A stretch of 64,000 nt of DNA, from contig NZ_CP129971.1 in NCBI RefSeq assembly GCF_030503855.1, positions 2,666,001 through 2,730,000 of the forward strand, given 5' to 3'. The notes under the pieces were generated by a model, which was given only the letters and a program-made list of their open reading frames with translations, was not told where the DNA came from and searched no databases. Made by a program: the position numbers and the translations under genes. Source of the DNA: Marivirga salinae (GTDB lineage Bacteria; Bacteroidota; Bacteroidia; Cytophagales; Cyclobacteriaceae). How positions within the stretch are numbered: position 1 is the stretch's first letter; each line of letters opens with the position of its first letter. This document shows positions 17,701 to 35,428 of the stretch, in pieces.

Positions 17701-18732
17701 TTACTTTCCCAAAGTAGATTCTCTTAAAATCAAGGAAGTTTCCATAATATAGGTTTCATATTTAATGGGTTTATTTTCTCTGGTAAGTTGAATTTCATTA
17801 ATGATTAGTTCTACTGCTTTCTTACCCATTTCATAATCAGGTTGAGCTACAGAAGATAGGGGAGGATCTACTACTGATGCCATTTTCCAATCACTAAATC
17901 CCATAACGGCAATATCTTCCGGAATTCTTAATCCCTTTTCTTTTATAGCTTGAATAGCCCCTATTGCTGTTGGGTCTGTTGCACAAAAAATTGCATCTGG
18001 AATTTCATTTTCTGATAATAAGGTTAAAGTTGATGTATAGCCATCTTCCCTTGAAACCAAATTGCATTTTTTCATAAAGTTAGGATAGAAGGTTAATTTA
18101 TAGTCTCTTAAAGCAGATTCAAATCCCTTATATCTTTCTTTTATAGTGTAGGGGTCTGCTAAGCCAGTAATATGGGCTATTTTCTTTTTTCCTAGGCTAA
18201 TTAAATGTTCTGTTGCGTAATAGGCACCTTTATAATCATCACAAATTATTTTTGCAGATTCCATCTCAGGATTAACCTTATCTATCATTACGACCGGAAC
18301 ATTATGTTCTTGTAAATTTTTAAGGTGATCTACATTAATAGTATTGTCTGATAGAGAAATAATCAAGCCGTCAATCATACTCCTTTGAAATGTATCTACT
18401 CCTTTAAGTTCAGATTCATAAGATTCATTACTTTGATAAAGCATCACACTATAGCTAAGTTTTTCAGCTTCGTTAATTATCCCACTGATTACGTTGGAAA
18501 AAAAATGATGAACTATTTGTGGTATGATTACCCCAATTATAAACGATTTTTGGTTTTTAAGATTAATTGCAAACTGATTTCTTTGATAATGTAATTTCTC
18601 AGCAAGTTCAAAAACCTTCTTCTTTGTTTCTTTTCCGATATCTGGTTTGTTATTCAAAGCTCTTGAAACTGAAGGTATGCTTATACCTAATTCTTCTGCA
18701 ATATCTTTCAACCTAATATTATGTTTACTCAT
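17701..18732 (-). CDS. LacI-family transcriptional regulator
   Basis: A 343-residue LacI/GalR repressor. The N-terminal helix-turn-helix is RLKDIAEELGISIPSVSRALNN (in two parts, residues 7-28), with the hinge helix at about 45-60, then a periplasmic-binding-protein-like sugar sensor domain (IIGVIIPQIVHHFFSNV, DGLIISLSD, AHITGLADPYTIKERYKGF, PDAIFCATDPTAIGA, VMGFSDWKMASVVDPPLSS). The effector is probably a sugar or sugar phosphate. It is divergent from the SusC gene of the trehalase locus, and a LacI-type palindrome lies between them, so it likely controls that locus. Trehalose or a derivative is the inferred inducer. Confidence 0.92.
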   Translation of the reverse strand: MSKHNIRLKDIAEELGISIPSVSRALNNKPDIGKETKKKVFELAEKLHYQRNQFAINLKNQKSFIIGVIIPQIVHHFFSNVISGIINEAEKLSYSVMLYQSNESYESELKGVDTFQRSMIDGLIISLSDNTINVDHLKNLQEHNVPVVMIDKVNPEMESAKIICDDYKGAYYATEHLISLGKKKIAHITGLADPYTIKERYKGFESALRDYKLTFYPNFMKKCNLVSREDGYTSTLTLLSENEIPDAIFCATDPTAIGAIQAIKEKGLRIPEDIAVMGFSDWKMASVVDPPLSSVAQPDYEMGKKAVELIINEIQLTRENKPIKYETYIMETSLILRESTLGK

Positions 18733-18800
18733 ATTAATATTATTTTAACCAAAAGTTTCAGTTTAATTTAGAAAAAATCTAAATAGTAAGTGTTTTTCGC

Positions 18801-18818
18801 TACGTAAACGATTACGTA
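18801..18818. promoter_or_regulatory. LacI-type operator between regulator and SusC gene
   Basis: TACGTAAACGATTACGTA is an 18-nt palindrome in which 8 of 9 base pairs match, with a central CpG as expected for LacI/GalR operators (consensus of the type GTAANCGNTTAC). It lies 69 nt from the LacI start and 192 nt from the SusC start, well placed to control both. I cannot point to a convincing SusC promoter nearby. Confidence 0.6.
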
Positions 18819-19009
18819 AGATACTAAGTGTACTTTTTACACACAAAGCCTTGCAGAGATATTTTGGAATTTTTACATTGTTATTAATTTATTGTTAAAA
18901 CCAAATAAAATATAAACAGTTATGTATTGAATGGAGTAAAAACAAATGTAAACTAGGAAAAATCAAAATTAAATTATGGAACTATTAAACGGCTAAAATT
19001 CAAAAATTC

Positions 19010-22000
19010 ATGAGACACTTTTTACTAATTATTGCAAGTGTATGCTGGTTTTCCTTGGGAAGCCTTTATGCACAAGACAGAACAGTCAGCGGGACTGTTA
19101 CTGACTCTAAAACCGGGGAAGGTCTTCCCGGAGTAAATGTATTGGTAGTGGGAACATCCGAGGGTGCTACTACTGATTTTGATGGGAAATATAAGTTGAG
19201 TATATCGGGAGATGTCAGCTTAAAATTCTCATACATTGGTTACAAATCCCAAACTATTGAAGTTGGGAGTAGAAGTGTAATCGATGTACAATTACAAGAA
19301 GATGTTGAACAGCTATCAGAAGTGGTTGTAGTAGGTTATGGCGAAGTAGAAGCCAGAGATGCTACGGGTGCAGTAGAGCGTGTTACCTCTAAGGAATTCA
19401 ATGGGGGTGTGATTTCATCTCCAGAACAATTGATTCAAGGTAAATCTGCCGGTGTTCAAATTACATCTGCTTCTGGAGAACCTGGCGCAGGAGTAAGTAT
19501 TCGTGTGAGAGGTAGTTCATCTGTAAGAAATGGTAATAATCCATTATTCGTAGTAGATGGTATTCCTTTGGCTGGTAATGATGTAACAGCTGGTGGACCA
19601 GATGGCGGATTAGGAACTTCTGCCCCAAGAAACCCTTTAAACTTCTTAAATCCGAATGATATAGCAAGTATGGATATCCTAAAGGATGCTTCTGCAACTG
19701 CTATTTATGGTGCTAGAGGTGCTAATGGAGTTGTGTTAATCACAACCAAAAGTGGTAAAGGCATGGGTAAAACAATTAGTTATGATGCTAATGTAAGTAT
19801 TTCGGCTCCAGCAAATAGATATAATCTATTGAATAAAGATCAATATTTGCAAGGTGTTGCTGATTTAGGTTCTAATCCGGAAGATGTTAGATTTGATGAT
19901 GCTGATACTGATTGGCAAGATCAAATTATGAGAACAGCTATATCAACCAAGCATGATATAGCTTATGGTGATTCTTATTCAACTGGTAGTTATAGAGCAT
20001 CTGTTGGATATGAAAAGCAAAATGGTATTATTGAAAGTGCATCGTTAGAAAGATTCAATGCTCGTATTAATTGGAATCAAAAATTATTGGATGATAAATT
20101 AACCTTTAATACATCTACTAATTTTTCAAGAGTCAATGATAGTTTTGCTCCAATCACGAATAATGCTGGTTTCCAAGGTGATTTACTAGGTGCTGCTTTA
20201 GTTGCACCGCCAACACTTGCTCCCGATTTTGAAACATTAGGTTATTTAAATCCAAATAAATTATTAGAATATAATCAGGACTTAGCCGAAACAAATCGTG
20301 CGTTAATAAACATTTCTGCTGATTATGACTTAACTGAAAATTTCAATATTAGATTGAACGGAGGTCTCGATTATTCAAATTCAACAAGAAATACAGTTAC
20401 TTCACAAGATTTGGTTATTGATACAAGAGGTATCACTAATAATGGTAGAGGGAGTAGTGTAAATATTGAAAATAGAAGTACATTATTTGAAGCGTTGTTG
20501 AATTACAATAAAAAAGTAGGAGAAGGCAATTTAGATATCCTAGCGGGTTATTCTTACCAAGACTTTCTTTATACAGGAAGATCTGTTAGTGGATTTGGTT
20601 ATGGTACTTCTGATTTGAATGCAATGGTTGACCAAACCATTCAAGCAGGAAATGCTGTGAGAGGTGCTATCACCGGAGATTATCAGCAATTTGGTTATGC
20701 TGAAGGTGGAGATACCTTCTTTACGAATCAGTTTGGTGACGCTCCTTCTTTGGGTAATCCTGGTAGTGTGCCTGTTGATGCAGTGGTAGAAAATAACTAT
20801 GGAAATTATAATGAGTTACAATCATTCTTTGGTAGAATAAATTATAGTTTGTATGATAAGTTTTTATTCACTGCAACAATCAGAACGGATGGTTCAACTC
20901 GATTCGGAGGGGATAACAAGTATGGAATATTCCCTTCGGGAGCTTTTGCTTGGAGAATTTCTGATGAGGATTGGGCAGCTGAGACTTTCGATAACTTAAA
21001 ATTAAGATTAGGTTATGGTGTAACAGGTAATCAAGAAATTCCTCATAATCTTCATCAGAGAAGAGATTCTTATGGTGGGATTGACATAAATAATGATGGA
21101 ACTGTTCAGCAGCCCGGAACTAGTCCAGTGGCATTTGAAAATCCTGGACTTAGATGGGAACAGACTTCAATGTATAATGGTGGGTTTGATTTTGGTATAA
21201 TTAATAACAGATTAACAGGTAGTATTGATTATTACTACAAAAATACTGAAGACCTATTAATTCAAATATTTTCACCTCAACCAGCAGCTACTCCTTTCTT
21301 TTGGACTAATTTAGATGCAAATGTTGTGAATCAAGGATTCGAATTAATGTTAGATTATGTAGCTATTGATAATGAGAATTTGACATGGAATGTTGGGTTT
21401 AATGTATCAAGAAACGAAAATGAAGTTAAAAACTTAGGTGAATTTTTCTTTGATACTGGGAATATTTTTGGACAAGGACTTTCTGGTGCTTTTGCACAAA
21501 GAATTGCCAACAATCAGCCATTGTTTTCTTATTATATGGTTGAATCTAATGGGTTTGATGCACAAGGTTTTAATGATATCGAAGGTGAAAATCCAGAATT
21601 AGTGGGTAAATTCCCTATTCCTGTATGGAATTATGGATTCAATACTACTGTTGCCTACAAGAATTTTGACTTTGCATTATACTTGAATGGTCAAGGAGGC
21701 CACCACATTTATAACAATACTGCAAATGCATTCTTTACTGCAGGTAGTTTAGGAAGTGGTAGAAATGTTACAGAAGATGTATTGGAAAGTGGTGAGGCAC
21801 AAGGTAATACACCTATCGTTTCAACTTATTTCTTAGAAAAAGCAGATTTTTTAAGAGTTCAGAATCTTTCCGTTGGATATAATTTTGATTTAGATGAAAA
21901 CAGCTTTATTAAATCTATGAGACTTTCTGCAAATGCTCAAAATTTACATGTTTTCACAAATTATAGTGGGATAGACCCTGAAGTATCCAATACAGCAGCT

Positions 22001-22087
22001 AGAAATGGAATTCCTTCTTTTGGAATTGATTACACTCCATTTCCTAGACCACGAACTTTAACAATTGGTCTTAATGTTACATTTTAA
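19010..22087 (+). CDS. SusC/RagA-type TonB-dependent outer-membrane transporter (trehalase locus)
   Basis: A 1025-residue TonB-dependent importer. It has a signal peptide (cleavage after LYAQ, about residue 22), a carboxypeptidase-regulatory-like domain (TVSGTVTDSKTGEGLPGVNV, to about 105), a TonB-box-like EVVVVGYGEV, a plug domain (SPEQLIQGKSAGVQI, GNNPLFVVDGIPL, ILKDASATAIYGARGANGVV) and a beta-barrel ending in LTIGLNVTF. It should work with the SusD lipoprotein encoded 11 nt downstream to import a glycan. The neighbouring trehalase and symporter point to a small sugar such as trehalose or a derivative. It is probably controlled by the divergent LacI protein. Confidence 0.95.
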   Translation: MRHFLLIIASVCWFSLGSLYAQDRTVSGTVTDSKTGEGLPGVNVLVVGTSEGATTDFDGKYKLSISGDVSLKFSYIGYKSQTIEVGSRSVIDVQLQEDVEQLSEVVVVGYGEVEARDATGAVERVTSKEFNGGVISSPEQLIQGKSAGVQITSASGEPGAGVSIRVRGSSSVRNGNNPLFVVDGIPLAGNDVTAGGPDGGLGTSAPRNPLNFLNPNDIASMDILKDASATAIYGARGANGVVLITTKSGKGMGKTISYDANVSISAPANRYNLLNKDQYLQGVADLGSNPEDVRFDDADTDWQDQIMRTAISTKHDIAYGDSYSTGSYRASVGYEKQNGIIESASLERFNARINWNQKLLDDKLTFNTSTNFSRVNDSFAPITNNAGFQGDLLGAALVAPPTLAPDFETLGYLNPNKLLEYNQDLAETNRALINISADYDLTENFNIRLNGGLDYSNSTRNTVTSQDLVIDTRGITNNGRGSSVNIENRSTLFEALLNYNKKVGEGNLDILAGYSYQDFLYTGRSVSGFGYGTSDLNAMVDQTIQAGNAVRGAITGDYQQFGYAEGGDTFFTNQFGDAPSLGNPGSVPVDAVVENNYGNYNELQSFFGRINYSLYDKFLFTATIRTDGSTRFGGDNKYGIFPSGAFAWRISDEDWAAETFDNLKLRLGYGVTGNQEIPHNLHQRRDSYGGIDINNDGTVQQPGTSPVAFENPGLRWEQTSMYNGGFDFGIINNRLTGSIDYYYKNTEDLLIQIFSPQPAATPFFWTNLDANVVNQGFELMLDYVAIDNENLTWNVGFNVSRNENEVKNLGEFFFDTGNIFGQGLSGAFAQRIANNQPLFSYYMVESNGFDAQGFNDIEGENPELVGKFPIPVWNYGFNTTVAYKNFDFALYLNGQGGHHIYNNTANAFFTAGSLGSGRNVTEDVLESGEAQGNTPIVSTYFLEKADFLRVQNLSVGYNFDLDENSFIKSMRLSANAQNLHVFTNYSGIDPEVSNTAARNGIPSFGIDYTPFPRPRTLTIGLNVTF

Positions 22088-22098
22088 AAGATATTAAA

Positions 22099-23682
22099 AT
22101 GAAAAATTTTAAAAATATATTATTAACAACTTTGGCGGTCACTGCATTTAGTTGTACCGACTTAGAAGTAGAAGAAATAGATTCTGAAATAGTAGAACAA
22201 GATTTCAGTAATGTGAATGTCGGCAGTAGGCTTTCTGGAATGTATAATCAATTTGGCGAATATTTACATTCTCAAGAAAATACTTATGCTTTAATGGCAT
22301 TAACAGGTGATGCTCAACTAGTTCCGACAAGAGGAACCGACTGGGGAGATGGAGGAGTTTGGAGACAACTACATCAACATAGTTGGAATTCAAGTCATCC
22401 TCAAATTTTAAATTCATGGAATCAATTAAATGAGTTTACTTTTGCAGCAAATCAAATCTTATTATCAAACCCTAGTGCTAAAGAGGAAGCTGAGGCAAGA
22501 TATTTTCGTGCTCTAGCTAGGTTCTTGATTCTAGATTTTTGGGGTAAGGTACCTGATCGTGATCCTTCAGAACCAGTAGATGCAACACCAATAGTTTATA
22601 AAAGAGATGAAGGTGCTGAACATACTGTTGCTGAATTAATAGGTCTTATAGAAGAAGATTTATCTGATTCTTATATTAATAGTCTTCCATCTACTGGCCC
22701 AGGTGCTGGTGCAGATGTATTAAGAAGAGCTTCAAAAGCTTCTGCTTTACATTTAAGAGCAAAATTCTATTTAAACAAACATATACTTTTGAATGGCGCT
22801 ACGGCAAATTCTAGTCCAGAAGCTGCAGATATGCAACAGGTAATTGAAGATGTTGATGCTATTACAGCTGAAGGTTTTTCTTTACAAGAGGATTTTTTTG
22901 GGATGTTTGAAACACCAGAAGCTAGTTCAGAATCAATTTATTTGATAACTGGGTCAAATGGTGCAAATCCAAGAATAGCGAATACACTTCATTACAACCA
23001 TAGTTTTATACTAAGTGGTGGTGGATGGAATGGTTTTGCTACAACATCTGAATTCTATTCTTTATTTGAAGGACCGGAAGATACGAACGCTCCAGAAAGT
23101 GGTCAAGAAATTAGAAGGGGTTATGTTCCAGATAATGGTTTAGGTAGAGGTATGTTATATGGTCAGCAATATGGAACCGCTCTTGATAAAGATAGTGCTT
23201 ATGCCTTGGAGACTAGAGGTGGAGAACCATTGTTCTTTACAAGGGAGATGCCAGAAGAACTGACTGGACATGGTGAAGCTACTGGTATCAGATTGATAAA
23301 ATATCCTCCTATTCCTGAAGGAGGAGAGCCTGGTGTTGGTCCATCTAATCAAATTTTCTTTAGATATGCTGATGCTTGGTTAATGAAAGCGGAAGCTTTA
23401 CACAGATCAGGTAACACGGGCCAAGCGCTTATAATGATTAATGAATTGCGTGATTTACGTGGCGCAACTCCTTTAGCAGGTCTTACTGATGATGATATCA
23501 TTGATGAAAGAGGTCGTGAATTATACATTGAATTCTGGAGAAGACAGGATTTAATTCGATTTGGAAAATTCTTAGATCCTTGGTTGTATAAACCACAATC
23601 AGATGAAACAAGACTGTTATTTCCAATCCCAATTACAGCAGTAAGTACTAACCCTGATTTAGATCAAAACCCTGGTTATTAA
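22099..23682 (+). CDS. SusD/RagB-family glycan-binding lipoprotein (trehalase locus)
   Basis: A 527-residue surface lipoprotein that forms the lid of the SusC channel. The lipobox is AFSC with C19 as the lipidated residue, followed by an acidic stretch that fits surface export. SusD features include EAEARYFRALARFLILDFWG, the TPR-like helices (ASALHLRAKFYLN), AWLMKAEALHRSG and the C-terminal signature ERGRELYIEFWRRQDLIRFGKF with LFPIPITAVSTNPDLDQNPGY. The gene is 11 nt after SusC, and a hairpin-T tract follows it, separating it from the downstream lipoproteins. Confidence 0.94.
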   Translation: MKNFKNILLTTLAVTAFSCTDLEVEEIDSEIVEQDFSNVNVGSRLSGMYNQFGEYLHSQENTYALMALTGDAQLVPTRGTDWGDGGVWRQLHQHSWNSSHPQILNSWNQLNEFTFAANQILLSNPSAKEEAEARYFRALARFLILDFWGKVPDRDPSEPVDATPIVYKRDEGAEHTVAELIGLIEEDLSDSYINSLPSTGPGAGADVLRRASKASALHLRAKFYLNKHILLNGATANSSPEAADMQQVIEDVDAITAEGFSLQEDFFGMFETPEASSESIYLITGSNGANPRIANTLHYNHSFILSGGGWNGFATTSEFYSLFEGPEDTNAPESGQEIRRGYVPDNGLGRGMLYGQQYGTALDKDSAYALETRGGEPLFFTREMPEELTGHGEATGIRLIKYPPIPEGGEPGVGPSNQIFFRYADAWLMKAEALHRSGNTGQALIMINELRDLRGATPLAGLTDDDIIDERGRELYIEFWRRQDLIRFGKFLDPWLYKPQSDETRLLFPIPITAVSTNPDLDQNPGY

Positions 23683-23700
23683 TTAATTTACTCAGTTAAA

Positions 23701-23738
23701 AAAAGGGTAATGGATTATTTTCCATTATCCTTTTTTTA
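23701..23738 (+). terminator. Terminator or attenuator after SusCD
   Basis: Stem GGGTAATGGA / TCCATTATCC (10 bp, one G-T pair), extended by A-T pairs, with a 6-nt loop and seven T residues. Because the following genes clearly belong to the same locus, partial termination that lowers their expression relative to SusCD is plausible. Confidence 0.8.
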
Positions 23739-23746
23739 TACATTTA

Positions 23747-23767: not shown

Positions 23768-26700
23768 ATGTTTAATAGAAGATCACTTTTTTATTACTGG
23801 AGTCTTATTTTTATTATGCTTATGGCTTGTGAAAACAATCCTGAAAGTGAAAAGACATCTGATTTAAAAACAAATACTTTTGAATTACTTGATTCAACTC
23901 AAACAGGAATAACCTTTCTTAATCAAGTAGAAAATAAATATAAATTCAATATTTTTTCCTACCGTAACTTCTACAATGGGGGCGGTGTGGGCATCATTGA
24001 TATTAATAATGATGGGCTACAAGATATTATTTTTACGGGTAACCAAGTCAATAATAAACTTTACCTTAATAAAGGAAATTTCAAATTTGAGGACATTACT
24101 GAAAGCGCTGGATTGAAGGGATACGGAGGCTGGAGTACGGGGGTCAGCATAATTGATCTTAACCAAGATGGTTTTAAAGATATTTACATTAGCAATGCAG
24201 GTTACCAAGAAGGCAGTGAACCTGTAAATGAATTATTTATTAATAATGGTGATAACACTTTTTCAGAAAAAGCCACTGATTATGGCTTAGATGAATCAGG
24301 TTATACTACGCATGCTGCCTTTTTTGATTATGATGGAGATGGTGATTTAGATGTTTATATTCTAAATAATTCATTCATCCCTGTAAACACACTCAATAAT
24401 AGCAATAAAAGAGATTTATATGCCGAAGATTGGGATGTAAAAGATTTTGTAAAAGGCGGTGGCGATAAATTGTTACGAAATGATAATGACAAATTTGTTG
24501 ATGTAAGTAGAGAAGCAGGAATTTACGGTTCTTTAATTGGTTTCGGGCTTGGAGTAACAGTAGGGGATGTAAATGGAGATCATTTACAAGATATTTACGT
24601 TTCCAATGATTTCTTTGAAAGAGATTATCTCTACATCAATCAAGGAGATGGGACATTCTCTGAAGACAGTAAAAAATGGATGGATCATATGAGTCTGGCT
24701 TCCATGGGAGCCGATTTGGCTGACATCAATAATGATGGTTATCCTGAAATTTTCACCACTGAAATGATACCGGAAACGGATCAACTTATCAAACAGAAAT
24801 TACAGTTTGAAAATTATAATACTTACCAACTCAAACTCCGAAGAGATTTTTACCATCAATACATGCACAATGCATTGCAATTGAATACAGGAAATGGAAG
24901 TTTTCAAGAAATAGCATGGTATGCAGGTGTTGCACAATCCGACTGGAGTTGGGGGGCTTTAATGTTCGATGCAAATATGGATGGATACAATGACATATTT
25001 GTTTGTAATGGTGTTTATCAAGATGTAACGGATGCCGATTTTATGGACTTCTTTGCAAATGATGTGGTTCAGCGTATGGTGCTGACTGGCAAAAAAGACA
25101 AAATGGAAGATATCCTTGCCAAGATGCCAAGTAATCCTCAAGCAAATAAAATGTTTATCAATCAAGGTAACTTACAGTTTGCCAGCAAGGAAAAAGAAAT
25201 GGGCTTAGGTCAGGAGACTTTCTCAAATGGTGCAGCTTATGCTGATTTGAATAATGATGGAAGTCTAGACATTATAGTTAATAATCTCAATCACCCTTCA
25301 ACAATTTATAAGAGTAATGCTAAGACAGAGAGCACTCACTTTTTAAAAGTAGCATTAGAATTTGAAAAGCCTAATCGTGATGCCATTGGGGCAAAAGTCC
25401 ATGTATTTGGAGGAGGATCTCAATTCTACCGTCAAATGATGCCAAGTAGAGGTTTCCAATCTTCGGTTGATTATAATCTTCATTTTGGAATAGGTGAAAT
25501 TCAAAAATTAGACTCAATTAAAGTCATCTGGCCTAATAAAATGATAAGTATAATTGAAAAGCCTGCAATTGATACTTTGCTCACCGTTGATTATAAAAAT
25601 ATATCTAAAAAAGAAGGGACAGTTAAGACTCCATTTTTGAAAGAATCAAAAGAGCAGTATTTTAAGCAGGTAAATAATGATTTTAAAAAGCATGAAGAAG
25701 ATAATCATGTTGATTATTATTATGAGGGGCTGATTATGAGGATGCTCTCAAAGGAAGGACCTTCAGTAGAGGTAGTCGATTTGAATAATGACGAATTAGA
25801 AGATGTAATTATAGGCGGTGCAGTAGGTCAAGTAAGTAGTATTTATTATCAGCAACCTAATGGTCAATTCAAATCTAAAGAATTGAATGATCAGGAAAAT
25901 GAAGTGACCGCTATCCATGCTTTTGATGCTAATGATGATGGTTTATTGGATATATATTTTGGTTATGGTGGAAACCATACTTCTGCAAATTCAGCTGTTT
26001 TTAATGATAAGTTGTTTCTACAAACTGCCTCAGGTGATTTTGAAGAACAATCAAATGCAATTCCAGAAATAGGATATAATACTTCAGTTGTTTTAAGTTT
26101 TGATTATGATGAAGATGGTGATTTAGATTTATTTGTGGGGAGTCGATCAGTTCCTCAGGAATATGGTCAAAGCCCGAAAAGCTTTTTGTTTGAAAATGAT
26201 GGAAATGGAAACTTCAAGGATATGACTATCAGAAGAGCAAAAGAGTTGGATGGGCTTGGAATGATCACAGATGCGAAAATAGAAGATATCAACCAAGACG
26301 GTAATCAAAATTTAATTATTTCAGGCGAATGGATGGGCATTGAAATATTTGAAATTGCAGGTAAACAGCTGAAAAGAATAGAGTATAATCCTTTAAAGGA
26401 TTTAAAAGGCTGGTGGAATTCTGTTGAAGTAGCTGATTTGAATAATGATGGTATGCCTGATTTGGTATTAGGTAATAGGGGCGAGAATTTCTATTTCTCA
26501 GCTACTGATGAAAAGCCAGTTAAGATTTGGCTTGAGGATTTTGACTCTAATGGTGATAAGGATAAGATTTTGACTAGAACAATCGATGGAAAAGATATGC
26601 CCATTCAACAGAAAGGAGAAATGATTGGTCAACTCCCTATATTGAAAAAGCAAAATTTGAAATATAAAGATTATGGCACTAAATCCATTGAAGATTTATT

Positions 26701-27112
26701 TGGTGCTGAAAAAATTAAAGATGCATCCAATAAAACAGTTAATACTTTCCAAACAATGGTTATGCTTAATAAAGGAAATGGTGAATTTGAAAAAGCAAAT
26801 CTGCCAATTCAAGCACAATTATCAGCAGTTCATTCAGTAGAAATACTGGATGTTAATCAAGATGATAATTTGGATTTGATATTGGCTGGTAATGAAGAAG
26901 GCTTTAAACCGCAATATGGTAAGTTGGATGCCAATGATGGTTTAGTGTTGTTTGGAGATGGTGAAGGTAATTTCAACTCAATGAATGAACATAAAAGCTT
27001 AGGAATCAGAGGAAATGTTCGCTCTATCAATTCTATTCAAATCCAAAACCAAAACTATTTACTATTTGGTATCAATAATAAAGAAGCTGTTCTACTACAA
27101 ATCAGGAAATAA
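23768..27112 (+). CDS. Giant FG-GAP/VCBS-repeat lipoprotein with ASPIC/UnbV domain (copy 1)
   Basis: A 1114-residue lipoprotein (lipobox MLMAC, C21). It consists of many FG-GAP/VCBS blades with calcium-loop patterns such as DINNDGLQD, DYDGDGDLD, DVNGDHLQD, DLNNDGSLD and DYDEDGDLD, forming one or two beta-propellers of the CRTAC1 type. An ASPIC/UnbV segment lies at about 540-600 (GAKVHVFGGGSQFYRQMMPSRG and FGIGEIQKLDSIKVIWPN, two separate pieces). Proteins of this kind are placed on the cell surface in Bacteroidota and their biochemical roles are unknown. It is followed 3 nt later by a full-length relative, so it is in an operon with it, the haloperoxidase-like gene and trehalase. Confidence 0.9.
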   Translation: MFNRRSLFYYWSLIFIMLMACENNPESEKTSDLKTNTFELLDSTQTGITFLNQVENKYKFNIFSYRNFYNGGGVGIIDINNDGLQDIIFTGNQVNNKLYLNKGNFKFEDITESAGLKGYGGWSTGVSIIDLNQDGFKDIYISNAGYQEGSEPVNELFINNGDNTFSEKATDYGLDESGYTTHAAFFDYDGDGDLDVYILNNSFIPVNTLNNSNKRDLYAEDWDVKDFVKGGGDKLLRNDNDKFVDVSREAGIYGSLIGFGLGVTVGDVNGDHLQDIYVSNDFFERDYLYINQGDGTFSEDSKKWMDHMSLASMGADLADINNDGYPEIFTTEMIPETDQLIKQKLQFENYNTYQLKLRRDFYHQYMHNALQLNTGNGSFQEIAWYAGVAQSDWSWGALMFDANMDGYNDIFVCNGVYQDVTDADFMDFFANDVVQRMVLTGKKDKMEDILAKMPSNPQANKMFINQGNLQFASKEKEMGLGQETFSNGAAYADLNNDGSLDIIVNNLNHPSTIYKSNAKTESTHFLKVALEFEKPNRDAIGAKVHVFGGGSQFYRQMMPSRGFQSSVDYNLHFGIGEIQKLDSIKVIWPNKMISIIEKPAIDTLLTVDYKNISKKEGTVKTPFLKESKEQYFKQVNNDFKKHEEDNHVDYYYEGLIMRMLSKEGPSVEVVDLNNDELEDVIIGGAVGQVSSIYYQQPNGQFKSKELNDQENEVTAIHAFDANDDGLLDIYFGYGGNHTSANSAVFNDKLFLQTASGDFEEQSNAIPEIGYNTSVVLSFDYDEDGDLDLFVGSRSVPQEYGQSPKSFLFENDGNGNFKDMTIRRAKELDGLGMITDAKIEDINQDGNQNLIISGEWMGIEIFEIAGKQLKRIEYNPLKDLKGWWNSVEVADLNNDGMPDLVLGNRGENFYFSATDEKPVKIWLEDFDSNGDKDKILTRTIDGKDMPIQQKGEMIGQLPILKKQNLKYKDYGTKSIEDLFGAEKIKDASNKTVNTFQTMVMLNKGNGEFEKANLPIQAQLSAVHSVEILDVNQDDNLDLILAGNEEGFKPQYGKLDANDGLVLFGDGEGNFNSMNEHKSLGIRGNVRSINSIQIQNQNYLLFGINNKEAVLLQIRK

Positions 27113-27115
27113 TAA

Positions 27116-30100
27116 ATGAAAGTTAGCATAGTGAAGAGAATTAATTTCAAGTATAATACTTCATACTTAATAAGCAGTTTTTCGCTTATTGTTTTAAGTC
27201 TATTTTCAGCATGTCAGGATTCAGAAGAATCATATTTTGAATTATTAAAGGCAGAAAAAACTGGTTTGGATTTCGAGAATACCTTGGAGCAAACCACGGA
27301 ATTCTCCTTTTTTGATTATATGTATTTCTACAATGGAGGAGGAGTAGCTGCAGGAGATTTTAATAATGATGGTTTGGTCGATTTATTTTTCACTTCCAAT
27401 ATGGGAGAAAATAAGCTTTTTCTAAATCAAGGTGACTTCAAGTTTAAAGATGTCAGTAAAGAAGCAGGAATTGTAGGGGAAGGTTATTGGTCAACCGGAG
27501 CTTCGGTGGTAGATATTAATCAAGATGGAATGCTAGATATCTATGTAAATGTAGTAGGTGATCATGAAATCCTGAAAGGATCCAATCAGCTATTTGTTTG
27601 CAAAAAAATAGAAAATGGAATTCCTGTTTTTGAGGATGAAGCCATCGCTTATGACTTAGACTTGGCTGGTTTTGGTACACAAGCAGCTTTTGCTGATTTT
27701 GATAAAGATGGTGACTTGGATATGTTCCAGTTGAATCACAGTATACATCAAAATGGGACTTTCGGAAAAAGAGAATCTTTTGAGGAAGAAACAAGTAATG
27801 TTTCCGGAGATCGATATTTCAGAAATGATAATGGCACATTCATAAATGCAACCGAAGAAAGTGGTATTAATAGTACTGTTATTGGCTATGGTTTGGGTGT
27901 AGTGGTCGGTGATGTTAATAATGACGGCTATCCTGATATTTATGTGGGCAATGATTTTCATGAAAATGATTATCTCTATATCAATCAGCAGGATGGTACT
28001 TTTAAAGAGATGCTGACGGAGCAAATGCAACATACCAGCCGATTTTCAATGGGTGTAGATATGGCAGATATTAATAATGATGGCTTTAACGATATCATTT
28101 CTTTAGATATGCTCCCATACGATCCTCAGATTTTGAAGAGTAGTTTGGGAGAAGAAGCCTTTGATGTTTATCGCTTTAAAAAGGATTTTGGTTATAACGA
28201 CCAATTTGCTCGTAACAACTTGCAATTGAATAATCAAAACGGCACTTTTAGTGAGATTGCGCTATATGCCGATATCTATGCTACAGATTGGTCTTGGGCA
28301 CCGCTTTTTATGGATTTTGATAATAATGGCCAAAAAGATTTATTCGTTTCCAATGGGATTCCGCGCAGAATGAATGATATAGACTATATCAATTATATGA
28401 GCTCAAATGAGAATCAGCGAAAAAAGACTGAAATGGGCATAGTAGATAAGGAGGATTTAGAAATAGTGGAGCGAATGCCGAAAATCAAATTGCCTAACCG
28501 CTTCTTTTCCAATAATAAAGACCTGACTTTTGATGATGTAAGCTCTCAAATCAGCAATAATCAAAATTCTTATTCTAATGGTGCCATTTATGTGGATTTA
28601 GACAATGATGGTGATTTAGATATAGTAGTAAATAATTTAGAAGACAAGCCTTTTATTTATAAAAACACTGCTGTAGAAGATAATAGAAGTGGGAAGTATT
28701 TACAATTAGAATTAGTAGGCAGTGAGAATAACCGAAATGCCATCGGAAGCCGAGTTATTGTAAAACAGAAAAATAATGAAAGTTTGAGCTATGAATATTT
28801 CCCTGTGAAAGGCTTTCAAAGTTCTGCACAAGATAAATTGCATATTGCAATAGGAGATAGTAGTCAGGTTGAAAATATCCAATTGATTTGGCCAGATGGA
28901 AGCACTCAAAATCTGAATAATCTTAAATATAATAAAGTTCACAAGGTCAAATATCAAGATGGTTTAGACTCTTTTGATTTCGCATCACTTCATCCAACTA
29001 ATTTTGATTACAGAGCCATTGAGTTGCAAGATTCTTTAGGTTTAGATGTAGTACATAAAGAGAATCAATTTGTAGAATTTATCAGAGAACCTTTAATGCC
29101 TCATATGGTATCTTCTGAAGGGCCAGCTTTAGCTGTAGCTGATATCAATGGAGACGGTAGAGAGGATTTTTTTATTGGATCTTCCAAGCGTGAAGATAGT
29201 CAGCTCTGGATACAAACTGAGGAGGGGAAATTTAAATTGATGGAACAGCCATTAATCCAAAACGATCATACTTTTGAAGATGTTAATGCTGTTTTTGCCG
29301 ATATAGATAATGATGGAGACCAAGATTTAATTATTGCATCCGGAGGAAATGAATACAGAGGAGATTCTGAATATATTACACAGAGAGTTTATTTGAATGA
29401 TGGTAAAGGTAATTATAATGATAAATATGTATTTGAAAACAGCCATATGACGGCTTCTTCAGTGGCCGTTGCAGATTTCAATGGCGATGGTTTTCAAGAT
29501 GTGTTTTTTGGCGGTCGTGCGGTTCCTTATGGATATGGATTAGCACCAGGATCTAAACTTTACTTCAATAATCAAGACGGAACTTTTAAATTAGCAAATA
29601 ATGTGATGGCTCCATTTTTAGATGAAATGGGAATGATAACTGATGCTTCATCAGCAGACCTAAATGGAGATGGGAAACCCGATATTATCTTAGCTATTGA
29701 ATGGGAGAGTATTAAACTCATGATTAATGAAGGTGATAAATTTGTACTTCATGAAGTTGGAAATGAGAAAGGGTGGTGGAGACACATAAAAGCAGGTGAT
29801 TTCGATGGTGATGGCCATATTGATATTATTGCTGGAAATATTGGCGAAAACTCAAGGTTTAAGCCAACTGAGGAAGAACCCGTCAATTTATATATCAAAG
29901 ATTTTGATGATAATGGTCAAACGGATCCTTTATTGACCTATTATCTTGATGGTAAGGAAATTCCGTTTGCCAATCATTCGGAGATCTTAAAGCAATTGCC
30001 TATGCTCAAGAAAGATTGGAAATATGCGCAGGATTTTTCAAAGGCAGATTTAAGCGATGTTTTTGGACGAGATGCTTTAGAATCTGCTGAAAAGTTATCA

Positions 30101-30469
30101 GCTAATGATTTTTCAAGTTATTTTTATAAAAATAATGGCGATGGGGCTTTCGAAGCCATAGCCTTACCGATGGAATTACAAATATCTTCTCTTAATGCCC
30201 TAGAATTTATAGATGACGATAATCGGGAACTATTAGGGGCTGGAAACTTTTATGAGAATAATATTGAAATGGGTAAATATGATGCTCAATATGGAACAGT
30301 ATTTCAATTACAAGATTCTATCATTAACATTAAGAAAGTGAAAGCCTTGAAATTGGATGGTCAAGTGAGAAACATAAGATCAATCGATGTGAATGGTGAA
30401 AAATATTTTCTGGTTAGCAGAAATGACAATAGTTTGAAATTGATAACATTCGATAAGATAAATAATTGA
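27116..30469 (+). CDS. Giant FG-GAP/VCBS-repeat lipoprotein with ASPIC/UnbV domain (copy 2)
   Basis: A 1117-residue paralogue of the preceding gene with the same order of parts: lipobox LFSAC (C33) after a long signal peptide, N-terminal blades beginning FYNGGGVAAGDFNNDGLVD, the ASPIC/UnbV piece (NAIGSRVIVKQKNN, FPVKGFQSSAQDKLHIAIGD), and C-terminal blades (DINGDGREDFF, DIDNDGDQDLI, DFNGDGFQDVF, DLNGDGKPDII). Nearly equal length and matching landmarks, such as DWSWG/A near the middle, point to an old tandem duplication followed by divergence. The first methionine may not be the true start, since MKVSIVKRINFK is long for a lipoprotein signal. Function unknown; a surface scaffold or binding protein is a guess. 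Confidence 0.9.
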   Translation: MKVSIVKRINFKYNTSYLISSFSLIVLSLFSACQDSEESYFELLKAEKTGLDFENTLEQTTEFSFFDYMYFYNGGGVAAGDFNNDGLVDLFFTSNMGENKLFLNQGDFKFKDVSKEAGIVGEGYWSTGASVVDINQDGMLDIYVNVVGDHEILKGSNQLFVCKKIENGIPVFEDEAIAYDLDLAGFGTQAAFADFDKDGDLDMFQLNHSIHQNGTFGKRESFEEETSNVSGDRYFRNDNGTFINATEESGINSTVIGYGLGVVVGDVNNDGYPDIYVGNDFHENDYLYINQQDGTFKEMLTEQMQHTSRFSMGVDMADINNDGFNDIISLDMLPYDPQILKSSLGEEAFDVYRFKKDFGYNDQFARNNLQLNNQNGTFSEIALYADIYATDWSWAPLFMDFDNNGQKDLFVSNGIPRRMNDIDYINYMSSNENQRKKTEMGIVDKEDLEIVERMPKIKLPNRFFSNNKDLTFDDVSSQISNNQNSYSNGAIYVDLDNDGDLDIVVNNLEDKPFIYKNTAVEDNRSGKYLQLELVGSENNRNAIGSRVIVKQKNNESLSYEYFPVKGFQSSAQDKLHIAIGDSSQVENIQLIWPDGSTQNLNNLKYNKVHKVKYQDGLDSFDFASLHPTNFDYRAIELQDSLGLDVVHKENQFVEFIREPLMPHMVSSEGPALAVADINGDGREDFFIGSSKREDSQLWIQTEEGKFKLMEQPLIQNDHTFEDVNAVFADIDNDGDQDLIIASGGNEYRGDSEYITQRVYLNDGKGNYNDKYVFENSHMTASSVAVADFNGDGFQDVFFGGRAVPYGYGLAPGSKLYFNNQDGTFKLANNVMAPFLDEMGMITDASSADLNGDGKPDIILAIEWESIKLMINEGDKFVLHEVGNEKGWWRHIKAGDFDGDGHIDIIAGNIGENSRFKPTEEEPVNLYIKDFDDNGQTDPLLTYYLDGKEIPFANHSEILKQLPMLKKDWKYAQDFSKADLSDVFGRDALESAEKLSANDFSSYFYKNNGDGAFEAIALPMELQISSLNALEFIDDDNRELLGAGNFYENNIEMGKYDAQYGTVFQLQDSIINIKKVKALKLDGQVRNIRSIDVNGEKYFLVSRNDNSLKLITFDKINN

Positions 30470-30472
30470 TAA

Positions 30473-31816
30473 ATGAAGAGTACAGTATTCTATTTTTTAG
30501 CATTTTTTGGGTTCTTTTTTTCTTGTACCCAGTCTGAAAATCATAAGACTCCTGTGGAAGCAAAGGACTTGCATTCTTTAATGCAAAGAGTAACAGATGT
30601 GACGGTTCATGATATTTTTTCTCCACCGGTAGCAAGCAGGGTATATGTATATCCTTCCATTGCTACTTATGAAGTTTTAGCAAAGCAAGATTCTTCCTAT
30701 AAATCTTTAGCAGGACAAGTTAATGGTCTCCAACCAATTCCAAATCCTGATAATGAAAATGTAAACCTCCAATTAGCTGCACTTTATGCTAATTACTTAA
30801 CTTCCAAAATGCTGATTTTCTCAGAAGAAAAAATGGAAGAATGGCTATCTGATTGGAAAACTGAATTAGAAAATAGAGGAATGGATGATGATGAATGGGA
30901 GTCTTCTGTGAATTATGCCACTAAAGTTCATCAGCATATTGTAGCATGGGCTAATGAAGATAATTATAAGGAAACTAGGACTATGTCTAAACATCCTTTA
31001 AGTGATAAATCCCATCATTGGGAGCCTACACCTCCAGCGTATATGGCAGCTATAGAACCACATTGGAATAAAATCAGAACATTTGCATTGGACAGTGCTA
31101 ATCAGTTTATCCCTCAACCTCCTTATGAATTTAGTTTAGATGAAAGCAGTCCTTTCTATAAAGAAATGATGGAAGTTTATAATGTGGTTAAGGGTGTAGA
31201 TAAGGAAAAGAAAGAGATTGCTTCATTTTGGGATTGTAATCCTTATGTGATGAATATAACCGGTCATGTGATGTTTGCAACTAAGAAAATTACGCCTGGA
31301 GGTCACTGGATGGGAATTGCCAAAATTGCATCTATGCTAGATGAGGCTGATTTAATGAAAAGCAGTTATGCTTATACCAAAACTTCAATTGCTTTGGCAG
31401 ATGGTTTTATCGCATGCTGGGATGAAAAGTATCGTTCAAATTTAATCAGACCAGAAACTATCATTAATAGAAAAATTGATAATGACTGGTCTCCAACATT
31501 ACAAACACCACCTTTTCCTGAATATACAAGCGGACATAGTGTGATTTCTACAGCGGCTGCTAATGCCTTAACTGATGTATATGGTGATAATTTTAGTTTT
31601 GTTGATAGCACCGAAGTTAAATTCGGACTTCCTTCCAGAAAATTTAATTCATTTATGGAAGCATCTCAGGAAGCTGCTATGAGCCGATTGTATGGTGGTA
31701 TTCACTACAGACGAGCAATAGAAGAGGGAATATGGCAAGGACAGAAAGTTGGCGATTTGATTAGAGAAAAATTAGATTTTAAAAGTAATAACACAATAGC
31801 AAGTAAACAGAAATGA
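30473..31816 (+). CDS. Vanadium-dependent haloperoxidase / PAP2-like lipoprotein
   Basis: A 447-residue lipoprotein (lipobox FFFSC, C18) of the vanadium haloperoxidase/PAP2 phosphatase superfamily. The vanadate- or phosphate-binding residues are all present: K319 and R326 in KYRSNLIRP (K-x6-RP), the acid-base H355 in YTSGHSV, and R405 with H411 in SRLYGGIH (SR-x5-H). Two changes from the classical motif are visible: TSGH instead of PSGH, and Ala where the D of H-x3-D usually sits. Bacteroidota members are mostly uncharacterised, so haloperoxidase and phosphatase are both possible. It lies 3 nt after the second giant lipoprotein and overlaps the trehalase gene by 4 nt (ATGA), which ties it to sugar use. 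Confidence 0.87.
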   Translation: MKSTVFYFLAFFGFFFSCTQSENHKTPVEAKDLHSLMQRVTDVTVHDIFSPPVASRVYVYPSIATYEVLAKQDSSYKSLAGQVNGLQPIPNPDNENVNLQLAALYANYLTSKMLIFSEEKMEEWLSDWKTELENRGMDDDEWESSVNYATKVHQHIVAWANEDNYKETRTMSKHPLSDKSHHWEPTPPAYMAAIEPHWNKIRTFALDSANQFIPQPPYEFSLDESSPFYKEMMEVYNVVKGVDKEKKEIASFWDCNPYVMNITGHVMFATKKITPGGHWMGIAKIASMLDEADLMKSSYAYTKTSIALADGFIACWDEKYRSNLIRPETIINRKIDNDWSPTLQTPPFPEYTSGHSVISTAAANALTDVYGDNFSFVDSTEVKFGLPSRKFNSFMEASQEAAMSRLYGGIHYRRAIEEGIWQGQKVGDLIREKLDFKSNNTIASKQK

Positions 31817-33444
31817 AAGAATTTTATCATTATTCAAAACACTATTGTTTAATATTAATAATTATACTTTCAGCCTCTTGTTCTGCAGTTGTTGAAAGGG
31901 AAAAGAATAACAAAGTAGAAAATTCACTGAATGATTTTCTTGAATTTTATGATTCTGAATTATTCAAAGCTGTGCAATTGAAAGGAGTTTTTAAGGATTC
32001 AAAAACATTTGTCGATTGCATTCCTAAAAGCAGTTTAAAGAAAATTCAAATTAGTTATTTAGCAGAAAAGGACAGAAAAAATTTTGATCTGAAAGAATTT
32101 TTAAATAATAATTTTGAGCTTCCAGAAGATCCTAAAACAGAATTTGAAACAGATCAGCTAATGGATATGTACGATCATATCGAAAGCTTGTGGCCAGTAT
32201 TAACTCGAACTGAAGACACTATTCAAAACTCTTCTTTAATTCCATTGCCTAACCCTTATGTTGTTCCTGGCGGTCGTTTTAGAGAGATATATTATTGGGA
32301 TTCATATTTTACTATGCTCGGGCTTAAAGCATCGGGCAAGGAAGATCTAGCTATTAGTATGTTGGATAATTTTGCATTTCTGATTGATAGTTTAGGCTTT
32401 ATCCCAAATGGAAATAGGGCTTACTATACAGGTAGAAGTCAACCACCATTTTTCTCTCTTATGGTGGATGAATTAACGGCTAACAATCGCTCTAAATTTA
32501 TTTCTTATCAGCCTCAACTATTGAAAGAATATGAGTTTTGGATGAAGGGAAGTGAAAAATTATCTGAAGTTAATCCTGCTATCAATAGAGTAGTATTATT
32601 AGAGGGTGATATCGTCTTAAATCGATATTTTGATGAATATGCTAAAGCCAGGCCTGAATCATTTAAAGAAGATTATGAATTGGTTCATGAAAATGATTTA
32701 GATGAAGATAAAACTTTCAGAGATTTGAGAGCTGGTGCTGAATCAGGATGGGATTATAGTAGCAGATGGTTTGCTGATCCTCAAGAAATGAAAACAATTC
32801 AAACTACTGATATCATTCCTATTGACTTGAATGTACTCTTATATTTTTTAGAAGTTAAAATAGCACAGGCTTATAACTGGAACGAACAACTCGATAGCGC
32901 GGATATTTACTTAGAAAAAGCCAATAATCGAAAAAATGCCATCAATAGCTTACTTTGGAATGAAAAAGATCAACGTTATGCTGATTATAATTTCAGGAAG
33001 AGTGAACACACTAAAATTTTAAGTATGGCATCTGCCTATCCTCTATTTGCAAAAATTGCGCCTAAGGACAAAGCTCGAATGGTGATGAAGCAAATGAAAA
33101 ATCGTTTACTATTAGACGGAGGCTTTGTGAGTACTACCGTAGAAAGTGGGCAACAATGGGATTATCCTAATGCCTGGGCACCACTGCAATGGATAGGAAT
33201 TCAAGCACTATTTAACTATGGTGAACATGAAGCAGGTTTGGATGTGATGAACAGATGGCTCAGTTTAAATGAGAAGGTTTACCAACAAACCGGTAAAATG
33301 ATGGAAAAATACAATGTCGCAGATACTAGTCTGCAAGCAGGAGGTGGGGAGTATCCATTACAAGACGGTTTTGGTTGGACCAATGGAGTGGCCGTGGCGA
33401 TGAAAAAAATACTACAAGAGAAGGAAGAATTAGCACTTAAATAG
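31813..33444 (+). CDS. treA: Trehalase, glycoside hydrolase family 37, lipoprotein
   Basis: Splits alpha,alpha-trehalose into two glucose molecules, here in the periplasm or on the surface since a lipobox (SASC, C23) is present. Trehalase signature 1 is PGGRFREIYYWDSYF and signature 2 is QWDYPNAWAPLQ. The catalytic acid is D314 in AESGWDYSSRW and the catalytic base is E498 in MMEKYNV, both by analogy with Tre37A of Escherichia coli. The 543-residue length is normal. Its start overlaps the haloperoxidase-like gene by 4 nt. It gives the best clue that the whole locus handles trehalose or a related disaccharide. Confidence 0.95.
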   Translation: MKEFYHYSKHYCLILIIILSASCSAVVEREKNNKVENSLNDFLEFYDSELFKAVQLKGVFKDSKTFVDCIPKSSLKKIQISYLAEKDRKNFDLKEFLNNNFELPEDPKTEFETDQLMDMYDHIESLWPVLTRTEDTIQNSSLIPLPNPYVVPGGRFREIYYWDSYFTMLGLKASGKEDLAISMLDNFAFLIDSLGFIPNGNRAYYTGRSQPPFFSLMVDELTANNRSKFISYQPQLLKEYEFWMKGSEKLSEVNPAINRVVLLEGDIVLNRYFDEYAKARPESFKEDYELVHENDLDEDKTFRDLRAGAESGWDYSSRWFADPQEMKTIQTTDIIPIDLNVLLYFLEVKIAQAYNWNEQLDSADIYLEKANNRKNAINSLLWNEKDQRYADYNFRKSEHTKILSMASAYPLFAKIAPKDKARMVMKQMKNRLLLDGGFVSTTVESGQQWDYPNAWAPLQWIGIQALFNYGEHEAGLDVMNRWLSLNEKVYQQTGKMMEKYNVADTSLQAGGGEYPLQDGFGWTNGVAVAMKKILQEKEELALK

Positions 33445-33620
33445 AATTGCTGTTTTCGCTTGGAAAGAGATAATTTAACTGGAGCTAATGAAAACAATAG
33501 ATTAAGGAGTCTAGTAATATTGATTTTGACATTCAGATAAAAATTTATTATTCGACATGATTTTATGCCACTCAGCAAATCCAATTTTTTATTTTCAAAA
33601 ATTCCCTCTAATTTCCACAA

Positions 33621-33755
33621 ATGGAAAACGATAAAGATTTAGAAGATAATAACCCACCTTTACTTGGGAAGTGGAAGAATTTCTATTGGTTATTGATTAT
33701 CGTATTAGTCAGTTTGATTAGTATTTTTTATGCCATAACCCGATATTTTGCATGA
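33621..33755 (+). CDS. 44-residue single-pass membrane peptide coupled to the symporter
   Basis: A short ORF starting MENDKDLEDNNPPLLGKWKN, with one strong membrane helix (FYWLLIIVLVSLISIFY) and ending ITRYFA. Its TGA overlaps the ATG of the Na+/solute symporter (ATGA), so the two are translationally coupled. Short peptides with the same layout (acidic start, PP-x-GKWK-like turn, one helix) sit before symporters of this type in other Bacteroidota, as far as I recall, which suggests a small accessory subunit. It is not a fragment of a larger gene. Confidence 0.7.
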   Translation: MENDKDLEDNNPPLLGKWKNFYWLLIIVLVSLISIFYAITRYFA

Positions 33756-35428
33756 GCGCTTTAGATTGGATTGTCCTTTTCGGAACTCTTATAATGATTG
33801 TAAGCTATGGTGTTTATAAAACCAGAGGAAGCAAAAACATTGAATCTTATTTAAAGGGAGACAATAGCATGAAGTGGTGGACCATAGGTTTGTCCATTAT
33901 GGCAACCCAAGCTAGTGCTATCACCTTTTTATCTACTCCTGGTCAAGCTTACGAAAGCGGTATGGGTTTCATACAGTTTTACTTTGGTTTACCTATAGCC
34001 ATGATAATTCTGAGTATTTGGGTTTTACCGATCTATTACAAACTAAAAGTTTATACCGCTTACGAATATCTAGAATCACGTTTCGATTTAAAAACCAGAA
34101 TTTTAGGAGCATTTCTTTTCTTAATTCAAAGAGGATTAGCTGCAGGAATCACTATTTATGCTCCCGCCATTATTCTTTCTTCTATATTAGGTTGGCCATT
34201 GGTTTACACCACCGTAATTATTGGTTCGTTGGTTATCATTTATACCGTAAGTGGAGGTACAAAAGCAGTAAGTCAAACCCAAAAGCTTCAGATGATTGTG
34301 ATGATGGGAGGGATGATTGTTGCCGGACTTTTTGTAGTGAAATTGCTACCTGAAGATATTGGAATTGTTGGAGCAACAAAAATAGCAGGCCATTTAGGAA
34401 AGCTTGATTTGATTAATACTGAAGTGGACTTAGAAAACCGATACACTTTATGGACCGGTTTGTTAGGTGGGCTGTTTGTCGCTTTATCATATTTTGGTAC
34501 TGATCAATCACAAGTAGCACGTTATTTATCAGGCAAATCATTAACAGAAAGTAGATTAGGGTTGATGTTCAACGGTTTGTTGAAAATACCTATGCAGTTT
34601 GTTATTCTTTTTATCGGGGCATTGGTTTTTGTTTTTTATCAATTCAACCAAGCACCTGTTTTTTTTAATGAGGCGGCTAAAGATGAAGTCTACTTAAATG
34701 AAGAACAAAAAGAGAAGTATCAGGCTGTTGAGCAGGAATATGCTGATTTATTTGAAGAAAAAAGGAGACAAGTACATTTATTGTCAGAAGCAGAAGGCAA
34801 TGAAGTAGAGGTTTTAAAAGAGAAAATTTCAGGTATTCACGACAGGGAAGACCAATTGCGAAATGAGGCTAAAGATATAATTAAAGCTACAAATGAGGAT
34901 TTAGAAACCACTGATACTGATTACGTTTTTATCACTTTTGTAATGGAAAACTTGCCTAAAGGTATAATTGGACTTTTGTTGGCTGTGATTTTTTCTGCTG
35001 CTATGTCATCGACTGCATCAGAATTGAATGCGTTAGCCTCTACTAGTATTATAGATATTTATAAACGAAATATTTATAAAAAGGGGAGTGAAAAACATTA
35101 TTTAATAGCCTCTAAGCTTTTTACGCTTTTCTGGGGATTAGTCGCAGTGTTTTTTGCCACTTTTGCTGGTTTGTTAGATAATTTAATTCAAGCCGTAAAT
35201 ATTTTAGGGTCAATATTTTATGGAACCATACTGGGTATTTTCTTATCAGGATTCTTCATCAAGTATATAAAAGGAAATGCCGTATTTGTTGGGGCAGTAG
35301 TTGCACAAATGGTAGTTTTGTACTTTTATTTCTTTAGTGAAATGGCCTATCTATGGTTTAATCTCTTGGGTTGCGGAATTGTAATTTTGGTAGGATTACT
35401 TTATCAATATTTAAAAAACAACAAATAA
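33752..35428 (+). CDS. Sodium:solute symporter (SSS/SLC5 family)
   Basis: A 558-residue inner-membrane importer with about 13 membrane helices. Family features are SYLKGDNSMKWWTIGLSIMA, ATQASAITFLSTPGQAY (Na+-site region), the GTDQSQVARYLSGKS loop and AAMSSTASELNALASTS. Residues 301-390 are a long charged insertion (EEQKEKYQAVEQEYADLFEE) that looks like a coiled-coil pair of helices between two membrane segments, much longer than in typical sugar symporters. The gene follows the trehalase and the small membrane peptide, so the likely cargo is glucose or another sugar freed by the locus. There is no clear terminator after it. Confidence 0.9.
   Translation: MSALDWIVLFGTLIMIVSYGVYKTRGSKNIESYLKGDNSMKWWTIGLSIMATQASAITFLSTPGQAYESGMGFIQFYFGLPIAMIILSIWVLPIYYKLKVYTAYEYLESRFDLKTRILGAFLFLIQRGLAAGITIYAPAIILSSILGWPLVYTTVIIGSLVIIYTVSGGTKAVSQTQKLQMIVMMGGMIVAGLFVVKLLPEDIGIVGATKIAGHLGKLDLINTEVDLENRYTLWTGLLGGLFVALSYFGTDQSQVARYLSGKSLTESRLGLMFNGLLKIPMQFVILFIGALVFVFYQFNQAPVFFNEAAKDEVYLNEEQKEKYQAVEQEYADLFEEKRRQVHLLSEAEGNEVEVLKEKISGIHDREDQLRNEAKDIIKATNEDLETTDTDYVFITFVMENLPKGIIGLLLAVIFSAAMSSTASELNALASTSIIDIYKRNIYKKGSEKHYLIASKLFTLFWGLVAVFFATFAGLLDNLIQAVNILGSIFYGTILGIFLSGFFIKYIKGNAVFVGAVVAQMVVLYFYFFSEMAYLWFNLLGCGIVILVGLLYQYLKNNK

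Follow-up and report, generated by a model that had tools for sequence, protein, structure and literature searches.

A candidate alpha-glucoside utilisation locus of Marivirga salinae with paired propeller lipoproteins and a vanadium iodoperoxidase-type lipoprotein

Gene content and organization of the locus

The window analysed here is a stretch of 64,000 nucleotides from Marivirga salinae (contig NZ_CP129971.1, positions 2,666,001 to 2,730,000), part of a 4.49-Mb single-contig genome. At 17701-35428 it contains a candidate locus for the utilisation of alpha-glucosides, whose predicted surface proteins include a vanadium iodoperoxidase-type lipoprotein, here called VIPO. A LacI-family regulator (17701-18732, minus strand; PF00356 and PF13377 above cut-off) is divergent from the gene for a SusC TonB-linked outer-membrane transporter (19010-22087; TIGR04056, 685 bits against a cut-off of 368). 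On the plus strand with SusC follow a SusD lid lipoprotein (22099-23682; PF07980 above cut-off), the giant lipoprotein VCBS1 (23768-27112; FG-GAP repeats, an ASPIC domain and then a second propeller), its paralogue VCBS2 (27116-30469; PF13517 and PF07593, aligning with the VCBS1 family), VIPO (30473-31816; recognised by phmmer to PDB 4cit/4usz), a GH37 trehalase (31813-33444; PF01204, NF009773 TreF, and PDB 5z66/2jf4 by sequence), a 44-residue membrane peptide (33621-33755) that overlaps the symporter start, and a sodium:solute symporter (SSS family; 33752-35428; PF00474 and TIGR00813 above cut-off). A candidate LacI operator, the near-palindrome TTACGTAAnCGnTTACGTAA, lies about 190 bp upstream of SusC (18800-18819, no strand being assigned).

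A preliminary description of this DNA had named these genes, and every one is present where it was placed, with the family given to it (Pfam/NCBIfam). It had put them all in one direction, which holds from SusC through the symporter and fails for LacI. The four central genes are as tightly packed as described: VCBS1, VCBS2, VIPO and GH37 are separated by 3 nt, 3 nt and a 4-nt overlap. With SusC and SusD adjacent and accompanied by a glycan enzyme and a regulator (Pfam/NCBIfam), the locus has the gene content of a polysaccharide utilisation locus (PUL). The whole genome has three UnbV_ASPIC matches, two of them at this locus.

A relative of the vanadium iodoperoxidases

VIPO is a protein of 447 amino acids in the PAP2 superfamily (PF01569). 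It had been called a PAP2/haloperoxidase-like lipoprotein, an assignment that stands and can be sharpened to the vanadium iodoperoxidase type. Among solved structures, phmmer matches residues 7-443 to a vanadium-dependent haloperoxidase (PDB 4cit/4usz) with 522 bits, and identity to the solved Zobellia enzyme 4cit is 54% over 443 columns. W316, K319, R326, P327, F348, S353, H355, R405 and H411 are invariant in an alignment of 29 relatives, and G354 is nearly so. The K, R, S-G-H, R and H residues that we take to be the vanadate-binding site of vanadium-dependent haloperoxidases are all present (K319, R326, S353-G354-H355, R405 and H411), and the phmmer alignment shows them shared with ZgVIPO1 of Zobellia galactanivorans (PDB 4cit, 4usz). 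The structure 4cit in turn groups with L197 (68% identity) and L198 (63%), VIPOs located close to a trehalase in a family other than that of the window, and the trio has an SH-aLRT support of 100. In the available portion of one report, ZgvIPO1, used as a control, has iodoperoxidase activity alone (PMC10427571). The PAP2-like lipoprotein is, judged by its sequence, an intact relative of the vanadium iodoperoxidases, within the VIPO clade.

VIPO could instead be a phosphatase, its vanadate pocket binding phosphate, that dephosphorylates a trehalose-type sugar or a glycolipid ahead of GH37. Vanadium-free haloperoxidases show phosphatase activity, and VIPO belongs to the PAP2 superfamily; the pocket shared by PAP2 phosphatases and VIPO does not decide between the two activities. 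Phosphate also replaced vanadate in haloperoxidase crystals, according to the accessible part of the paper (PMC11871015). The nearest solved relative, however, has measured iodoperoxidase activity and clusters with trehalase-linked VIPOs, and we consider a phosphatase quite improbable.

Some VIPO loci elsewhere hold other genes beside VIPO. In L199 a second, longer PAP2/haloperoxidase-like gene (8003-9544; 513 aa) adjoins VIPO and GH37, and a similar pair is found in G627 and G694. L009 (605-13808) has a LacI gene beside VIPO; SusCD and one propeller gene there are divergent, and with a Rep3 replication initiator in the vicinity this locus is perhaps on a plasmid.

The propeller lipoproteins

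VCBS1 and VCBS2 are 1114 and 1117 aa long, as expected from the earlier account of two VCBS/ASPIC proteins of more than 1100 residues. Both have the FG-GAP repeats and UnbV_ASPIC domain of the CRTAC1/ASPIC family (Pfam), and the model of VCBS1, the protein taken for fold comparison, is best matched by CRTAC1 (PDB 9etn). We take each giant lipoprotein to be a two-propeller ASPIC protein of the CRTAC1 type. VCBS1 differs from CRTAC1 itself in its extra second propeller (about 626-1114) and in a lipoprotein-like signal, judged by eye. No catalytic role was found for either propeller lipoprotein. The preliminary description had proposed that the three lipoproteins strip a phosphate, sulfate or lipid group from a decorated sugar. 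This proposal is unsupported: the PAP2-like lipoprotein is closely related to an enzyme with measured iodoperoxidase activity and keeps its site, and the modelled propeller protein has its best match in CRTAC1.

No Pfam family matches a lipoprotein-like protein of about 200 aa (L035:2211-2810) that occurs in 29 of 80 loci and, where inspected, lies mostly between propeller genes.

The trehalase

GH37 scores 471.3 bits with PF01204 (cut-off 21) and 556.8 with NF009773 (TreF; cut-off 512). It is full length, and its motifs SGWDYSSRW at 311 and EKYNV at 498, in which the catalytic Asp and Glu of GH37 presumably lie, align with 2jf4. It thus shares motifs with the E. coli type trehalases TreA/TreF (PDB 2jf4), but unlike them it has a lipoprotein-like N-terminus (by eye) and is encoded within a SusCD locus. 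In one family, f13, GH37 loci (L171, L181, L183 and L191) have SusC, SusD and GH13 and neither VIPO nor propellers; they look like plain trehalose/alpha-glucoside loci.

Conservation within the genus

Among named organisms, Marivirga species have the VIPO loci nearest to that of the window. Ten genomes of the genus were sampled. VIPO is found in nine of them and a full GH37 in eight, and GH37 comes directly after VIPO in all eight. The contig of the ninth VIPO genome (G201) ends inside VIPO, and the tenth genome has neither gene. Members of the genus share the gene order LacI-SusC-SusD-VCBS1-VCBS2-VIPO-GH37, and their two propellers, VIPO and GH37 are 59-86% identical in protein to those of the window; a LacI counterpart at the same position in seven members is 69-86% identical. 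Comparison with three genus members shows synonymous sites that are saturated or nearly so. In every case where dS is computable, the ratio of nonsynonymous to synonymous change (dN/dS) of the two propellers, VIPO and GH37 stays below 0.1.

The region after GH37 is more variable. An extra SSS gene and a GH13 lie between GH37 and the symporter in four of the eight other VIPO-bearing members (G202, G199, G195 and G194), and the contig of G200 ends inside an extra SSS gene after GH37. The window genome and G198 have neither gene there, and none of the set was found downstream of GH37 in G197. The sole GH13 tested, from L004 (Marivirga sericea), is of the oligo-1,6-glucosidase type. The 44-residue membrane peptide, listed in the preliminary description, is conserved in all six genus members with a readable symporter, window genome included.

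The palindrome TTACGTAAnCGnTTACGTAA occurs exactly in six of eight LacI-SusC intergenic regions of the genus and with one mismatch in the window and G199; a conserved block lies directly downstream of it. With up to three mismatches allowed, it has a single match in the window (0.02 expected). It is likely the LacI operator, to which this LacI is predicted to bind.

SusC and SusD of the genus (19010-23682 in the window; L083-L096) are of two types whose distribution is at odds with descent. In LacI, the propellers, VIPO and GH37, identity between G194 and G195 is 97-99%, but it is 67% in SusC and 58% in SusD, while G194 and G202 share 94% in SusC and 93% in SusD. The SusCD pair appears to have been exchanged as one block.

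Neighbourhood of VIPO outside the genus

Co-location was scored start to start within 10 kb. The counts below cover listed places above score thresholds and are to be read as among the matches listed; they are set against Poisson expectations from which kinship between genomes was not removed. GH37 and VIPO are co-located in 6 of the 24 genomes of the class sample that have both (window genome excluded; 0.19 expected) and in 11 of 28 such genomes of family f61 (0.32 expected), three genomes being common to the two samples. Within the window's order, 23 genomes have both VIPO and a GH65 kojibiose hydrolase, and the two are co-located in seven of them (0.13 expected). The preliminary description had named a neighbourhood search showing random association as one result that would refute its reading. 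The association of GH37 and VIPO is not random in the class sample or in f61; in the window's order the genus alone shows it.

Sixty VIPO loci of the order, the upper part of the order-sample list with a few places near its end skipped, were searched for alpha-glucosidases as the enzyme partners; nine of these loci are shorter than 17 kb. Propellers occur in 38, SusC and/or SusD in 33 and both in 31, a GH65 kojibiose hydrolase in nine and GH13 in two. SusC, SusD, propellers and VIPO are a recurring core outside the genus. As a control, 40 of the order's 65 GH37 places were inspected; propellers occur at one of the 40 and a clear VIPO at none. On a contig of a Saprospiraceae metagenome-assembled genome (L020), a GH37 cut by the contig end is followed by an aldo/keto reductase, GH13, VIPO and two SSS genes.

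Fifteen regions in families f61, f74 and f56 were chosen for GH37 close to VIPO, the distance being within 10 kb in 14 and within 19 kb in G313. Twelve of them contain a propeller gene, 12 a GH65 (by clustering with a tested member) and 11 SusC and/or SusD. The four regions without SusC/D include two cut by a contig end (G625 and G694) and one for which the fetched stretch is too short (G585); G309 lacks the propellers as well as SusCD. Many f61 regions have the order SusC-SusD-VCBS-VCBS-small membrane protein (opposite strand)-GH65-VIPO-GH37, order and strand varying locally. A SusR gene lies upstream of SusC in five of the 15 regions, and the NCBIfam cut-off is reached for SusR in G399 and for kojibiose hydrolase in G343. 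In f74, VIPO is followed by a GyrI-like protein and then GH37; in G545 of that family GH97, a GH100-like gene and an MFS gene lie between. G343, G627 and G694 also have OtsAB and a trehalase-like gene of GH15, as tested in G343.

In a tree of 96 VIPO rows, GH37-linked VIPOs fall into two distant groups, and a single clade of them is rejected (p-AU 6e-6). The f61 rows were chosen for linkage, so that linked rows are over-represented in this tree. Since the GH37-linked VIPOs do not form one clade, the pairing arose or was retained along separate lines.

Two further proteins were seen in these regions. An opposite-strand protein of about 310 aa without a Pfam match (L211:13814-14749) occurs in 11 of the 15 chosen regions, mostly between the propellers and GH65 or VIPO. 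The GyrI-like protein beside VIPO in f74 is exemplified by L197:10650-11558.

Proposed function and alternatives

We favour, with somewhat better than even confidence, a locus for alpha-glucoside utilisation, most likely LacI-controlled, that serves trehalose or alpha-glucosylated trehalose and has a vanadium haloperoxidase in its outer-surface set. That trehalase points to trehalose or a modified trehalose was already suggested in the preliminary description, and a trehalose or alpha-glucoside locus is supported by the full-length GH37 with its motifs, the GH13 and second SSS after GH37 in four genus members, and GH65 together with GH37 in VIPO loci elsewhere. The enzymes found, GH37 (alpha-1,1), GH65 (alpha-1,2) and GH13/GH97, point to small alpha-glucosides as substrates. 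One such sugar is selaginose, or 2-O-alpha-glucosyl-trehalose, for the breakdown of which GH65 and GH37 alone would suffice. The window locus has GH37 alone of these, so that its likeliest substrate would be trehalose or a sugar ending in trehalose.

The sugar would relieve LacI repression, the saccharide would be captured at the surface by SusD and the propellers, GH37 would split the alpha,alpha-1,1 bond to give two glucoses, and the SSS symporter would import sugar. By analogy with utilisomes, SusCD may work in a single surface machine together with the propellers, VIPO and GH37, and the locus suggests a role for paired CRTAC1-type propeller lipoproteins as a surface part of it. VIPO, anchored beside them, would convert hydrogen peroxide and iodide to hypoiodous acid. 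The role of VIPO at the locus is one that we infer; halide oxidation, sugar specificity and induction are all predictions from the genes.

Two purposes for VIPO appear most economical. The freed glucose may fuel peroxide formation, as proposed for Arenibacter sp. C-21, in which iodine uptake requires glucose and oxygen, and glucose oxidase with haloperoxidase was put forward (PMC5064120); a trehalase adjoining VIPO fits that chain from glucose to peroxide. Alternatively, the peroxide may be encountered while feeding on algae. The Zobellia iodoperoxidase vIPO3 is up on the brown alga A. nodosum relative to alginate, as the available part of the study has it (PMC9296495), which fits peroxide met on algae too. 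Either way, VIPO would consume peroxide and make a local oxidant guarding the released sugar.

Several observations weigh against this interpretation. None of the eight main locus proteins is recognised as a peroxide-making oxidase (Pfam/NCBIfam). Within the window's order but outside the genus, GH37 and VIPO are neighbours in none of the 36 genomes with both, among the matches listed, and GH37 is absent from all 60 VIPO loci of the order. The Poisson expectations ignore kinship and so overstate independence. Finally, 23 of the 60 loci combine SusC/D, propellers and VIPO without any alpha-glucosidase queried, so that the role of this core is not bound to trehalase alone.

The last count favours a different arrangement, two modules in one operon, in which SusCD, the propellers and VIPO deal with a separate substrate, such as in a peroxide-related task, and were joined several times by alpha-glucosidases because both are useful on the same food, VIPO having no part in sugar use. 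That the partner enzyme differs between loci (GH37, GH65, GH13 or GH97) speaks for it too. On the other side, GH37 and GH65 joins recur far above chance, and the 23 loci were scored with alpha-glucosidase queries alone; we judge this arrangement possible, on the unlikely side. The missing linkage in the rest of the order would also suit a chance neighbourhood of the genus without shared function. Such an explanation is barely plausible, in view of the pairing being kept in all eight genus genomes with GH37 despite near-saturated synonymous change and recurring in other families.

A broader form of the favoured sugar-utilisation reading, which we hold to be distinctly unlikely, would give the bacterial iodoperoxidases of this clade, the solved Zobellia enzyme among them, a working role in the machinery of alpha-glucoside uptake: glucose would be freed at the surface by trehalase or kojibiose hydrolase, its oxidation would yield peroxide, and VIPO with iodide would make a local oxidant deterring competitors. 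If true, biological iodide oxidation would be driven by sugar feeding, and a link between VIPO and sugar use would tie marine sugar turnover to iodide oxidation. The recurrent link of VIPO to trehalose- and kojibiose-type enzymes, far above chance, gives a concrete growth condition for probing the role of iodoperoxidases. In the open-licence literature we found no paper on the combination of trehalase, SusD and haloperoxidase, and none that brings together any three of PUL, ASPIC, VCBS and GH37; a paper on a marine fungus contains both trehalase and haloperoxidase, and four papers contain trehalose, GH37 and SusC.

Comparison with known systems

The branched-dextran locus FjDexUL of Flavobacterium johnsoniae has SusR-SusC-SusD and a GH65 kojibiose hydrolase, like the VIPO loci of f61, and also GH66, GH31, GH97 and a SusE/F-type binder, as described in the available part of its report (PMC10316084), whose text contains neither "haloperoxidase" nor "VCBS". 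The window locus is not of the FjDexUL type: GH65, GH66 and GH31 are absent among its proteins (Pfam/NCBIfam). NF053734 has no match at E 1e-100 in G000. In the levan and dextran utilisomes of Bacteroides, SusC2D2, surface lipoproteins and an enzyme sit on one machine, according to the accessible portion of that work (PMC7618045). This is the plan expected here, where the surface set would instead be two propellers, a haloperoxidase and a trehalase. Arenibacter sp. C-21 has at least five homologues of 4USZ and a glucose-dependent iodine uptake with hydrogen peroxide as go-between, but its description, unlike the window locus, makes no mention of a trehalase (PMC5064120).

Neighbouring genes in the window

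A second sugar locus lies at 43540-59298 of the window, with a Reg_prop/Y_Y_Y/LuxR regulator, SusC, SusD, a PKD protein, GH16, GH3, GH16 and an MFS sugar transporter; it looks like a beta-glucan (laminarin-type) locus. Downstream of the symporter are two OmpA-like proteins with PD40 propeller repeats (35603-37393 and 40220-41800), the first of which keeps its position in the genus members where the symporter is seen.

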